Assembly: GCF_028288205.1 (NCBI RefSeq)
Contig: NZ_JAQBOD010000018.1
Coordinates: 62,001 to 126,000, forward strand
Direction: 5' to 3'
Source: Mucilaginibacter sp.
Lineage (GTDB): Bacteria; Bacteroidota; Bacteroidia; Sphingobacteriales; Sphingobacteriaceae
DNA: 64,000 nucleotides
The notes below the pieces were generated by a model. That model was not told where the DNA came from, searched no databases, and saw nothing but the letters and a program-made list of their open reading frames with translations. Positions 2,902 through 26,277 of the stretch are shown here, one piece after another. The first letter of the stretch is position 1; every line of letters starts with the position of its first letter. Both the position numbers and the translations under genes were made by a program.

Positions 2902-3293
2902 ATAGCTATATCTCAATTCATATTGTTTTTATTGCGTTACCTTAGTTGTCACACCGGCCAACTTATTCTGCCTGCTTTCACCAGACGCTTTCCGCCTCAG
3001 GTAGGTTCTAACCTGAATTTTGGTAATTACTGAAAAAAATAAAAAGAAGCGGTGGCCTGTCAGCCCACGCGGCCAGGAGTCTGGCCTAAGTGGTGGCAGC
3101 GATTGGGCTGACTTGATTTTTTGGTTCTTTTTCATCTAAGGAAAAAGAACTAGGCCTCCGCGGCTATGAGCGGTGGATGTTAACAGTAAGAATGCAGCCC
3201 GGTTTTATGAATAAGTAGTAATGGGCCTTAACGGCCTCGAGCATTACGAAGCGTTTTTAGAAGCTTGTACAAACATTACCGATTGGATTTGTT

Positions 3294-3486
3294 TGTTTCA
3301 TCACATCGAGATTGCCAATTTGCAATTATTTGATCATCAGGAATTAAACACATATCACCCATAAAAAGGCAGACGAATAAGTTGTTTCATTTTGTTTCAT
3401 TACTTTTTTGTAATTAACTCATTGGCAATGCTTTAAGTCAAAATCTTGTTTCACTTGTTTCATTTGTTTCACCCTCGCGTGAAACA
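3294..3486 (+). repeat. TGTTTCA heptamer array, copy A
   Basis: TGTTTCA at 3294, 3383, 3393, 3447, 3456, 3465 and inverted TGAAACA at 3480. Confidence 0.8.
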
Positions 3487-3562
3487 AACCTCCGATATAG
3501 CGATCCCGGCTTTCGCCTAAAAAGCCTTTTTTTAATCACAGGAAACCTACTTGCATTTTTAT

Positions 3563-6077: not shown

Positions 6078-6533
6078 TTAAAAATCCCTGTCTTTCGTGT
6101 CCATAATGATAGTTACCGGCCCGTCGTTGGTTAGGCTTACTTTCATATCAGCTCCAAAAATGCCGGCAGCTGTTTTTTTACCGGTTAAGGCATCCAGTGT
6201 TTTTGCCATTTGCTCATATAGCGGTATAGCCTTATCAGGCTTTGCAGCCTTAATAAATGATGGCCGGTTACCCTTTTTAGTTTGCGCAAACAGCGTGAAT
6301 TGCGATATCAGCAATATATTGCCATCTACATCGGCCAACGCTTTATTCATCAGGCCATTTTCATCACTAAAAATGCGCATACCGGTTATTTTTTGAGCCA
6401 GCCATTGCAGGTCATCTTCGGTATCGGCATCTTCAATACCCAACAGTACCAAAAAACCCGTACCGATCTGGCCGGTTATATTACCATCAACCTTACAGCT
6501 TGCTTGCGAAACGCGTTGTAGTACAGCCCTCAT
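6078..6533 (-). CDS. dtd: D-aminoacyl-tRNA deacylase
   Basis: MRAVLQRVSQASCKVDG, LLISQFTLFAQTKKGNRPSF, GIFGADMKVSLTNDGPVTI. Confidence 0.96.
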   Translation of the reverse strand: MRAVLQRVSQASCKVDGNITGQIGTGFLVLLGIEDADTEDDLQWLAQKITGMRIFSDENGLMNKALADVDGNILLISQFTLFAQTKKGNRPSFIKAAKPDKAIPLYEQMAKTLDALTGKKTAAGIFGADMKVSLTNDGPVTIIMDTKDRDF

Positions 6534-6604
6534 AATAACATCAAGAAGTTAGAATCAGGGGGCAAGATAAATAAAAAACCTTTGTCATTTCTGAACGATC
6601 CCGC

Positions 6605-6801
6605 TGTTTCACATCAGGTGTTTCACCCTATTTTTGCAAAAATCCATAAAACAGCATAAAACACTTATTGTAAGCTATTTATACTATTTTACCTGAAGCT
6701 TTGGTACTGTTTCAAAGTGTTTCACTCATTTTGTCAAATTATTAAATATCAATAGGTTAACCTAAAAAAGTGTTTCATGTGTTTCATTGTTTTGTGAAAC
6801 A
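6605..6801 (+). repeat. TGTTTCA heptamer array, copy C
   Basis: TGTTTCA at 6605, 6619, 6708, 6718, 6771, 6780 and inverted TGAAACA at 6795. Confidence 0.75.
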
Positions 6802-6900
6802 CTATATCAGGACGAGACAAGCTTTTTCTAACGTAATAACCGTTACTATCCCAAACAGGATTACGCCACGAGAAATTGCCGCGAAGTTGTTGTTGAGCTA

Positions 6901-8493
6901 TTACTCTTTGGAGAGGGACTGGGGAATAGTAATCGCAATGGTTGGCGTTCGGTCACTTTCGTTCTTTAGCCGGTCTATCGCTGTTATTACATATAAATAG
7001 GTTTTGCCAGACTGGGTGGTGGTATCAATAAAAATTGGCGTAGCATCATACTGTATATGCAAAATATTTGCCGGGCTGCTCACATCTATCTTTTCTGTTC
7101 CTTCATAACGATAGATCACATAGCCGTAAACCGGTTCTTTATCTTCGGCTGGCAATGGGGTATCCCATTTTAGCTGAACATGGTTATTAACAAGTTTTGT
7201 AGCAACAAGATTTTGCGGCACATTAGGCGCTATTGAATCTAACCAAAGCATAACAGGCGGTAAAGCAGGGTGCTTGTAATAGGTTAAACGGAGCGAGTCT
7301 GTAAAGCCAAGCTTATTGCTGGTTAATGAGTTCGAGCTAAAAAATACGCTGCCCTGCACCCGCGGATTATTTCGCAGCAGTTTTATCTGGTTAGGCAACT
7401 CGGCCGGTTGTCTCATAGCTAATGATCCGCGCTCATTTATACGATAGGCCGCCTGGCCCACATATAAATGCCGGTTATAGGTGTTATTGCTCCACCAGCT
7501 TAGCAGATTCTCGAACGCGGCAAGGCGGTAATGAATGGGCCAGTACATTTGTGGGTTTATATAATCTACCCATCCTTCTTTTATCCATTTGCGCGAATCG
7601 GCGTATAATTCGTAGTTAGAATCGCCGCCATGCGTATCAGACCCTTCGGGATTTTGGGCTTTATTGGCCCATATACCAAACGGACTAACGCCAAATTTCA
7701 TGTGGGGTTTATGCTTGTGTATACTGTCGCTAAGCATTTTTATTAGTTTGTTCACATTGTCGCGGCGCCAATCTTTAATATCCTGAAAATCACCCCCATA
7801 TTGTTTAAACGTTGCCGAGTCATTTATTTTTTGCCCGGCAATTTGATACGGATAAAAATAATCATCCATATGTATGCCGTCCACGTCGTAATTATCAACC
7901 ACGTTTAAAATTACCTGTACAATGTAATCGCGCACTTCGGGCAGGCCCGGATTAAAAAGTTTAATACCCCCGTAAGTAAAGAACCATTCGGGCTTTAAAT
8001 TGGTGATATGATTAGCAGTCAATAAATTAAACTTGCCATCCATAGTAGCGCGATAGGGATTAAACCAGGCATGCAATTCCATGCCGCGTTTATGAGCCTC
8101 GGTAATGGCAAAATCAAGCGGGTCATAAAAAGGTGCAGGTGCCTGCCCTTGTTTGCCGGTAAGCCATTTTGACCACGGCTCCTTACTTTTTGAATAAAAA
8201 GCATCGGCAGCGGGCCGCACCTGGAACATAACAGCATTAATGCCGGTATGCTGGTGTGCGTCAAATATATCTGTAAGCTGTTGTTTTTGCTGATCGGTGG
8301 TGAGCTTAGTGCTGGTTGGCCAGTCAATATTTACTACAGTGGCTACCCATACACCCCTGAATTCGCGCTTTGGGTCGGTACGGTATTTAAGCTTAGCCAA
8401 TGAATCTGTTTGGGCCTCTGCCTTAGTTATGATGAGCGCTATATTAGTTATAATGAGCGCTAAAAGAAATATAAAATGGCGAAATTGATACAT
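6901..8493 (-). CDS. Family 10-like glycosyl hydrolase (GHL10/DUF187) with C-terminal FN3-like domain, secreted
   Basis: KREFRGVWVATVVNIDWPT, AVMFQVRPAADAFY, HAWFNPYR, NPGLPEVRDYI, VDGIHMDDYFYPY; signal peptide. Confidence 0.9.
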   Translation of the reverse strand: MYQFRHFIFLLALIITNIALIITKAEAQTDSLAKLKYRTDPKREFRGVWVATVVNIDWPTSTKLTTDQQKQQLTDIFDAHQHTGINAVMFQVRPAADAFYSKSKEPWSKWLTGKQGQAPAPFYDPLDFAITEAHKRGMELHAWFNPYRATMDGKFNLLTANHITNLKPEWFFTYGGIKLFNPGLPEVRDYIVQVILNVVDNYDVDGIHMDDYFYPYQIAGQKINDSATFKQYGGDFQDIKDWRRDNVNKLIKMLSDSIHKHKPHMKFGVSPFGIWANKAQNPEGSDTHGGDSNYELYADSRKWIKEGWVDYINPQMYWPIHYRLAAFENLLSWWSNNTYNRHLYVGQAAYRINERGSLAMRQPAELPNQIKLLRNNPRVQGSVFFSSNSLTSNKLGFTDSLRLTYYKHPALPPVMLWLDSIAPNVPQNLVATKLVNNHVQLKWDTPLPAEDKEPVYGYVIYRYEGTEKIDVSSPANILHIQYDATPIFIDTTTQSGKTYLYVITAIDRLKNESDRTPTIAITIPQSLSKE

Positions 8494-24321: not shown

Positions 24322-24900
24322 TTAGAAGCCGTAAGCTACACGCAAACCAAAGAGGTTAACCTTACTATCGCTGTTAGTGCTTACAAGTTTGGTACTGGCC
24401 TCATAACGTACGCCTGCATCCAAAAAGCTTTTACCACCTAACGGGAACTGGTAGCCAACTTGCGGCGCATAAATAAAGGCAGCAGAGTTATCGGCACCAA
24501 TCTTAGTTTTGTCTAATACAAAAGCTGCACCGGCTTCTCCCTGGATGTAAAAATTACTTACCGGGAAGTACTTTAAACCTGCTTTTGCCGGTAACAACTG
24601 GATATCAGCCGGAGATACTGCTGTGCCTGCAACATTTTTAGCAAAGATATTATTGTACCCTGCATTTATTGTAACAAATAATTTGCTGGCTACCGGGATA
24701 TCTGCCTGTACAGAACCGCCAAGGTTCCATTTATAATTATCAGATAATTTTCCTGTAGGGATACCGGCATCAACACCGATGCTGTAGCGAACGCCGCCTG
24801 AAGTTGTTGTGGTAGATGCAGGGGTGGATTGTGCTTTAGCGCCAAGGGTAAAACCTGCTAAGGCTAAAACAAGTGCTGAAATTTTTAATGTACTTTTCAT
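24322..24900 (-). CDS. Outer-membrane beta-barrel protein, paralogue of the 23467..24081 gene
   Basis: Signal peptide; shared motifs with neighbour (TLRIGAGVEG/YSIGVDAG, FYFQGEAG/FYIQGEAGAA); terminal VAYGF. Confidence 0.82.
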   Translation of the reverse strand: MKSTLKISALVLALAGFTLGAKAQSTPASTTTTSGGVRYSIGVDAGIPTGKLSDNYKWNLGGSVQADIPVASKLFVTINAGYNNIFAKNVAGTAVSPADIQLLPAKAGLKYFPVSNFYIQGEAGAAFVLDKTKIGADNSAAFIYAPQVGYQFPLGGKSFLDAGVRYEASTKLVSTNSDSKVNLFGLRVAYGF

Positions 24901-25268: not shown

Positions 25269-25474
25269 TGTTTCATCTTGTTTCACCACTCCTAAATCAG
25301 GCAATTTGTAATTATTTGATTATCAATGAAAAATATTAAAATCATACTTAAAAATACTGAGGAATAAGTTGTTACATTTTGTTACATCACTTTTTCACAA
25401 TCATCTAATAAACAATGTTTTAAATCAAAATCTTGTTTCACTTGTTACATTTTGTTTCACTATTACGTGTAACA
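25269..25474 (+). repeat. TGTTTCA/TGTTACA heptamer array, copy B
   Basis: TGTTTCA at 25269, 25279, 25434, 25453; TGTTACA at 25370, 25380, 25443; inverted TGTAACA at 25468. Confidence 0.8.
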
Positions 25475-25494
25475 AAATTTGTTTTTGTACAGCT

Positions 25495-26277
25495 CTACTT
25501 ACCCTTAAAATCAGCTTTTCTTTTTTCAAGGAATGCGGCAACACCCTCTTTAAAATCTTCGGTACCGAAACATTTAGAAAATTCGTCTGTCTCAATCTCA
25601 AATCCGTTAACGCCATCGCGGGAGGATGCATTAACAGCGGTAATAGCCGCTGCTATGGCTAAGGGCGCACGGCTCAATATTTTTTGAAGGATCTCTTCGG
25701 CCTTGGTTAATAGGTCATCCTGACTAACTATATGATTAATCAAACCTAATTGATGTGCCTCGGCAGCGGTTATCATATCGGCAGTCATGATCATTTCCAA
25801 TGCCTTTCCACGCCCTATTAAACGGGTTAAACGTTGTGTACCACCATAACCGGGGATAAGGCCCAGCGTTACTTCGGGCAAACCCATTTTGACATTGTCA
25901 GACGCAATGCGGATATGGCAGGCCATAGCCAGTTCCAGGCCTCCGCCTAAAGCAAAGCCATTAACAGCGGCAATAACAGGCTTGTTGCCATTTTCGATGA
26001 GGTCAAAAACTTTGGTATGCGCTTCGTGTGATAATTCGCGGGCGCTGTTTATATCCAAATTAATAAATTCGGCAATATCTGCACCGGCAACAAAAGCTTT
26101 TGATCCGGCGCCGGTAATGATTATACCGCCAACCCTTTCATTAGCAAAAGCTTCAACTATCGCTGCATGCAATTCGGCAAGGGTAACTTTGTTTAGCGCA
26201 TTAAGTTTGCTTTCGCGATTGATGGTGATGTATAATACGCGCGCTTTTAGGTCAATTAACAAGTTTTGGTAAGCCAT
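25495..26277 (-). CDS. Enoyl-CoA hydratase/isomerase
   Basis: SKAFVAGADIAEF, NGFALGGGLELAMACHIRIAS, LGLIPGYGGTQRL. Confidence 0.94.
   Translation of the reverse strand: MAYQNLLIDLKARVLYITINRESKLNALNKVTLAELHAAIVEAFANERVGGIIITGAGSKAFVAGADIAEFINLDINSARELSHEAHTKVFDLIENGNKPVIAAVNGFALGGGLELAMACHIRIASDNVKMGLPEVTLGLIPGYGGTQRLTRLIGRGKALEMIMTADMITAAEAHQLGLINHIVSQDDLLTKAEEILQKILSRAPLAIAAAITAVNASSRDGVNGFEIETDEFSKCFGTEDFKEGVAAFLEKRKADFKGK

Follow-up and report, generated by a model that had tools for sequence, protein, structure and literature searches.

The attachment sites of tyrosine recombinases of the lambda attP type combine clusters of direct arm-type words with a bend imposed at a fixed place by integration host factor (IHF) and an inverted word pair with a spacer of 6–8 bp, and iteron-type origins such as that of pSC101 set direct iterons, an inverted copy and an IHF site in AT-rich DNA. 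Bacterial miniature inverted-repeat transposable elements (MITEs), reportedly exemplified by MITEAba12 (PMC6382973), are short, non-coding and devoid of a transposase. Repetitive extragenic palindromic sequences and bacterial interspersed mosaic elements (REP/BIME), together with their REP-associated tyrosine transposases (RAYTs), have as their hallmark a short palindrome with a GT(A/G)G head (PMC2817692). Here we describe an array of TGTTWCA heptamers (W being A or T) of about 200 bp, which is present in three copies (A, B, and C) in a stretch of 64,000 nucleotides from Mucilaginibacter sp. (contig NZ_JAQBOD010000018.1, positions 62,001–126,000, the whole of which is referred to as the window) and for which no named family exists in the literature searched.

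Like REP/BIME, the array is a high-copy intergenic repeat that is patchy by species (PMC2817692; PMC3733652), and its words change between lineages as if they were tracking a partner protein. It differs in that it consists of 200-bp arrays of non-palindromic direct heptamers with no head and no associated gene found. Neither a short palindrome nor the GT(A/G)G head occurs in the consensus of either family described below, and a search of the surroundings of the copies for a cognate transposase gene flanked by two inverted copies showed no recurrent gene there, and ordinary genes between the members of one inverted pair. Shortness, lack of coding capacity, inverted terminal words and absence of a transposase are shared with MITEs, and terminal inverted repeats are present in both families (TTGTTTCA...TGAAACAA in B, AGTGTTTCA...TGAAACACT in C), but neither a target duplication nor, in the genome itself, a parental transposon was found, and internal words and spacing appear to be under strong selection in place. 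Clusters of direct words, an IHF-type site at a fixed position (as a sequence motif only) and an inverted pair with a 6–8 bp spacer are reminiscent of lambda attP, whereas here a single word serves as both arm and core, copies number in the dozens and no recurrent integrase gene was found nearby. Direct iterons, an inverted copy, an IHF site and AT-rich DNA recall pSC101-type origins, and the class of word and a comparable distance between pairs recall phage TGTNACA arrays; in contrast to both, the elements are chromosomal and dispersed, have no initiator gene and carry the inverted word at a different place.

Conservation at loci shared with a sister genome

The 3.9-Mb Mucilaginibacter genome contains approximately 78 dispersed copies that fall into two related families, B (with copies A and B of the window) and C (with copy C). 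BLAST searches with the consensus of each family retrieved 40 copies of type B and 38 of type C, which are full-length except for a few that end at contig ends. Identity to the respective consensus is 75–94% for B and 87–96% for C, and element length is tight, amounting to 198 bp in most B copies and, counted from the first word to the last, to 199 bp in C. A genome-wide search for the pattern of pair 2 and cluster 3 (Table 1) gave 88 matches at approximately 75 distinct places and none for the reversed control pattern, so that these spacings are far commoner than expected, and a refutation that the earlier note on this DNA had named, namely no excess over shuffled intergenic sequence, does not apply. 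Within the window, TGTTTCA occurs 28 times as compared to 9.9 ± 2.8 expected, a count reached in no shuffle. The elements are intergenic, with no gene inside any copy and no coding overlap, and are enriched between convergent genes (17/42 vs. 37/297, p = 3e-5); their orientation relative to GC skew does not reveal any replication-strand preference.

The close sister genome (G121) carries at least 46 copies of B and 15 of C, and flank matching allowed approximately 40 of these 61 copies to be paired with copies at the same locus here, in a comparison that comprises one genome pair, both draft assemblies. Since the true ortholog of a B copy was mostly also its closest copy (rank 1 in 18/27), and since the filler between the heptamers diverged by 14.3% in orthologs as opposed to 27.5% in non-orthologs, the B pairs are inherited copies. 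In these pairs, heptamers differ at 9 of 1121 non-W positions (0.8%) and filler at 580 of 4050 (14.3%), and heptamers outside the requirement of the search pattern behave in the same way (8/635 vs. 580/4050, p = 7e-29). The filler rate (0.13–0.17) is close to that of non-coding flanks (0.09–0.13), and filler can therefore be taken as an approximately neutral reference. Changes at W itself are seen at 60/187 sites in B, a rate above that of filler (p = 2e-9), and the sister is biased towards A. In family C, where almost all words read TGTTTCA, heptamers 3–7 show 0/300 non-W differences as compared to 309/1628 in the filler. Spacing is similarly rigid: the distance from pair 2 to cluster 3 is 64 bp in 81/82 B and 63 bp in 51/51 C copies, that from pair 1 to pair 2 is 91 bp in 68/83 B and 89 bp in 43/50 C copies, and the inverted heptamer starts 15 bp after the start of the last direct one in 117/133 copies. 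Judged from these alignments, selection appears to keep words and spacing in place at resident copies while the filler drifts. Because such selection acts in place, the cell would gain from the words, or pay for losing them.

Layout of the copies and bend motif

All heptamers that the earlier note had reported for the three copies were found where it had placed them, and its rulers for A/B/C hold in the sequence (89/91/89 from pair 1 to pair 2, 64/64/63 from pair 2 to cluster 3, and 15/15/15 from last direct to inverted heptamer). Its proposal of one homologous, spacing-conserved family stands for A and B, while copy C belongs to the second, related family. The left “pair” 1 is in fact variable, consisting of one heptamer or of two at a spacing of 10 or 14 bp, and the terminal hairpin of copy A, previously given as 8 bp, measures 10 bp (TTTGTTTCAC-CCTCGC-GTGAAACAAA). 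The existence of two families, purifying selection in place, the IHF-type site, fast changes at W and word switching between species go beyond what had been noted before.

Table 1. Heptamer elements in the window and their parts
Feature	Position	Strand	Remarks
Copy A, B-family element	3293..3487	+	upstream of gcvT (3589), downstream of glycosyltransferase gene (1699-2901)
Copy A, pair 1 heptamer	3294..3300	+	single in copy A
Copy A, pair 2	3383..3399	+	TGTTTCA-ttt-TGTTTCA
Copy A, IHF-type position	3423..3435	+	TGGCAATGCTTTA, 2 mismatches to WATCAANNNNTTR; fixed position in family
Copy A, cluster 3	3447..3471	+	three heptamers (3447, 3456, 3465)
Copy A, inverted heptamer	3480..3486	-	TGAAACA, 15 bp past last direct one
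Copy C, C-family element	6602..6802	+	between D-Tyr-tRNA deacylase gene (6078-6533, -) and GHL10 hydrolase gene (6901-8493, -)
Copy C, pair 1	6605..6625	+	TGTTTCA at 6605 and 6619, 14 bp apart
Copy C, pair 2	6708..6724	+	
Copy C, IHF consensus	6747..6759	+	TATCAATAGGTTA, 0 mismatches; fixed position in family
Copy C, cluster 3	6771..6786	+	two heptamers
Copy C, inverted heptamer	6795..6801	-	
Copy B, B-family element	25269..25475	+	between OMP_b-brl gene (24322-24900, -) and enoyl-CoA hydratase gene (25495-26277, -)
Copy B, pair 1	25269..25285	+	
Copy B, pair 2	25370..25386	+	TGTTACA-ttt-TGTTACA
Copy B, IHF-type position	25410..25422	+	AAACAATGTTTTA, 1 mismatch; fixed position in family
Copy B, cluster 3	25434..25459	+	TGTTTCA, TGTTACA, TGTTTCA
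Copy B, inverted heptamer	25468..25474	-	TGTAACA, mispairs with TGTTTCA

The IHF consensus WATCAANNNNTTR, which is that of E. coli and is assumed to be usable in Bacteroidota, is matched with at most one mismatch in 84–100% of the copies as compared to 8–10% of shuffled filler, mostly at one fixed position between pair 2 and cluster 3. This is also true of 66% of the 85 copies examined in other species.

Two observations concern the surroundings of individual copies. A second, mosaic repeat with GGGTAATAGCCCAT-like ends flanks many C copies, on the right as TACATCACCTTTTTTAATGTAATAACCGTTACTATCCCGGCAGG... (e.g., at L061, L070, and L076) and on the left as ...ACATCAATAGTATTGCCCGGCGGGGTCGC (e.g., at L003, L027, and L048). 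Near position 13605 of contig C15 in G000 (L584), the left end of a B-type copy is cut by an apparent end of an insertion sequence (TGACTCGTCCTGAAAAGG...); another contig carries the right flank that matches this truncated copy.

Probable mobility and the proposed complex

Among 101 genomes of the same genus, the elements occur in only some and are absent from most. One genome (G014) contains a single copy, whose flanks, compared by eye, suggest a locus in common with one of the copies here. Diverged relatives of the elements are multi-copy in G061, G064 (Mucilaginibacter corticis), G091, G116 and G019, and single or few in number in G077 and G097. The word becomes TGATCCA in G019 and in part TGATTCA in G091, with layout and 47-bp interval unchanged. 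Distant species have few copies at a common locus and mostly use different loci. Phage and plasmid records contained no match to the element. A Mucilaginibacter genome without the element family (G002) contains a lone inverted, intergenic TGTTACA array (L079:9028-9085). In one intergenic region, a B-type copy of the sister (L188) corresponds to a C-type copy (L075) of the genome studied here, with both flanks orthologous; in a second case (L165 and L039) the region is the same by the right flank only. Both pairs share their hairpin-loop sequence, and the loop is variable everywhere. Amplification in some species, absence from most and mostly differing loci are best read as the mark of non-autonomous elements that are probably mobile in origin.

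The explanation we favour, with a probability of about 0.5, is that of a mobile-derived, non-autonomous nucleoprotein array that is served by a trans-encoded protein and an IHF- or HU-like bending protein and is kept in place by selection. Each copy would be a docking platform of fixed geometry on double-stranded DNA, at which a sequence-specific protein encoded elsewhere would bind TGTTWCA heptamers spaced one helical turn apart in each cluster. A protein of the IHF/HU type would bend the DNA that separates pair 2 from cluster 3 (approximately 63 bp, six turns) and thus bring both clusters and the inverted end heptamer into one complex, much as in an intasome or transpososome, and resident copies would stay functional through selection on words and spacing. 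The identity of this protein, formation of the complex, mobilization by the same protein and a benefit of intact copies are what we infer from sequence. By analogy, the features fit a complex that acts like an intasome, a transpososome or an iteron complex, without membership in any of these families being claimed. Where the earlier note had offered a cooperative protein-binding array or a non-autonomous mobile or structured element, an array with mobile ancestry is thus retained as the best explanation, and the structured element is dropped.

Several points weigh against this explanation. A search of limited extent for partner genes brought to light neither a binding protein nor an enzyme: no gene lies recurrently near the copies, a motif search for HUH-type transposases in their vicinity yielded nothing convincing, and no gene lies inside any copy. 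No direct repeat of 3–12 bp clearly exceeded expectation at any boundary offset, and clean empty sites were found neither in G014 nor in the sister or the genome itself, because flanks had diverged too far or the intergenic region had been replaced in its entirety, and for these two reasons the case for mobility is one of distribution. Orthologs in family C are barely closer to each other than paralogs (0.190 vs. 0.215), and because of this C may turn over faster, turnover or conversion being possible. Indels per substitution, which otherwise speak for the explanation, are several-fold fewer in filler than in non-coding flanks (0.03–0.13 vs. 0.43–0.64), but this contrast sets equal-length filler segments against flanks, so that the spacing counts are the firmer evidence. 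The bend motif, finally, is borrowed from E. coli.

The elements could also be ordinary MITE-like transposon remnants with TGT...ACA ends that evolve neutrally after insertion, their heptamers being transposase sites preserved solely because active copies seed new ones. The inverted terminal words (TTTGTTTCA/TGAAACAAA) and the dispersed, multi-copy and species-patchy occurrence agree with this, but it is already strained by same-locus copies that retain heptamers and spacing at 14% filler divergence. Furthermore, we found no decayed copies, no target duplication and no autonomous, gene-bearing copy or solo end in the genome itself, other genomes having only been sampled; a close inverted pair of copies in another species encloses ordinary genes only. 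We therefore regard neutral remnants as unlikely. If the elements were instead chromosomal sites domesticated for housekeeping, be it nucleoid organisation or the insulation or termination of transcription between convergent genes, this would account for selection in place, for the enrichment between convergent genes and for the lack of coding overlap. It is difficult to reconcile such a role with absence from most of the 101 genomes, with loci that differ between species and with the lack of orientation bias relative to GC skew, and the sole terminator-like site near copy A falls outside the heptamers, which renders this possibility unlikely as well.

Phage arrays and the terminal hairpin

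Scans of viral contigs revealed non-coding paired arrays of TGTTACA and also of TGTCACA, the latter scan having been intended as a control (L601, L603, L609, L610, L617, L626-L629, L319, L346, L363, L368, L373, and others). In most lineages, 46–48 bp lie between the pairs (63–65 bp start to start); the arrays are often located beside VapE, D5/DUF5906, DUF3987 or AAA_25 primase-helicase genes in most lineages tested and often have an inverted copy mid-way. They are possibly replication origins with interchangeable words, and their likeness to the Mucilaginibacter elements in word class and interval is a lead, not a conclusion. Paired TGATCCA was also tried on viral contigs and rejected, the matches being mostly coding repeats. 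Repeats of NWNVSGVTNM, which are coding and presumably BspA/DUF285-like, mimic the heptamer pattern at L316, L320-L325 and comparable viral loci and give false matches in TGTTWCA searches.

Could the elements be origin-like arrays, that is, mimics or relatives of the phage replication-module arrays that act as decoys or satellites and engage a phage initiator? Iterons combined with an IHF site are generally typical of origins, and the phage pairs are non-coding, have a similar interval and often neighbour primase-helicase genes. However, the inverted word is mid-array in phages and terminal here, and the element is in no phage or plasmid record. VapE and DUF3987 were absent from all 10 Mucilaginibacter genomes searched, in a search that did not include D5/DUF5906/AAA_25, and no initiator, primase or helicase gene adjoins the window copies, whose neighbours are ordinary genes. 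Such origin-like arrays are accordingly improbable. Even more speculative is the idea that a single protein–DNA code (a TGNNNCA word, pairs at 9–10 bp and a spacing of 63–65 bp) is put to two uses, in the elements and in the phage TGTNACA arrays, and is recognized by proteins of a replication-type family. If this were true, the genome would be stocked with dozens of decoys resembling origins, and their word would keep pace with the initiators of the bacterium's phages, which would be seen as the change from T to A in the sister and as other words in other species.

A structured RNA or single-strand hairpin (a riboswitch, a small RNA or IS200-like single-strand ends), the other form that the earlier note had considered, is very improbable. 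The terminal hairpin is formed in copies A and C, and its final direct word covaries with the inverted one (odds ratio 11.7, p = 1e-5), but the words mispair in 21/80 B copies, folding z-scores reach −2 to −2.6 at best and are close to 0 on one strand of copy B, and Rfam covariance models, a match to which the note had named as a possible refutation of its novel family, gave none. It is because of this mispairing and the weak folding signals that recognition of double-stranded DNA is favoured over that of a folded strand. A role of the hairpin loop as a locus-specific strand-exchange site was rejected, as loops vary even between orthologs.

Most dispersed repeats of bacteria have been regarded as selfish remnants. 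In the present case, selection is visible in the words and their spacing at dozens of loci, and a base within the word switches genome-wide at a rate faster than neutral. Comparison at the same locus thus opens a direct way to learn what these repeats bind and why their hosts keep them, and provides a defined target for the search for the protein.
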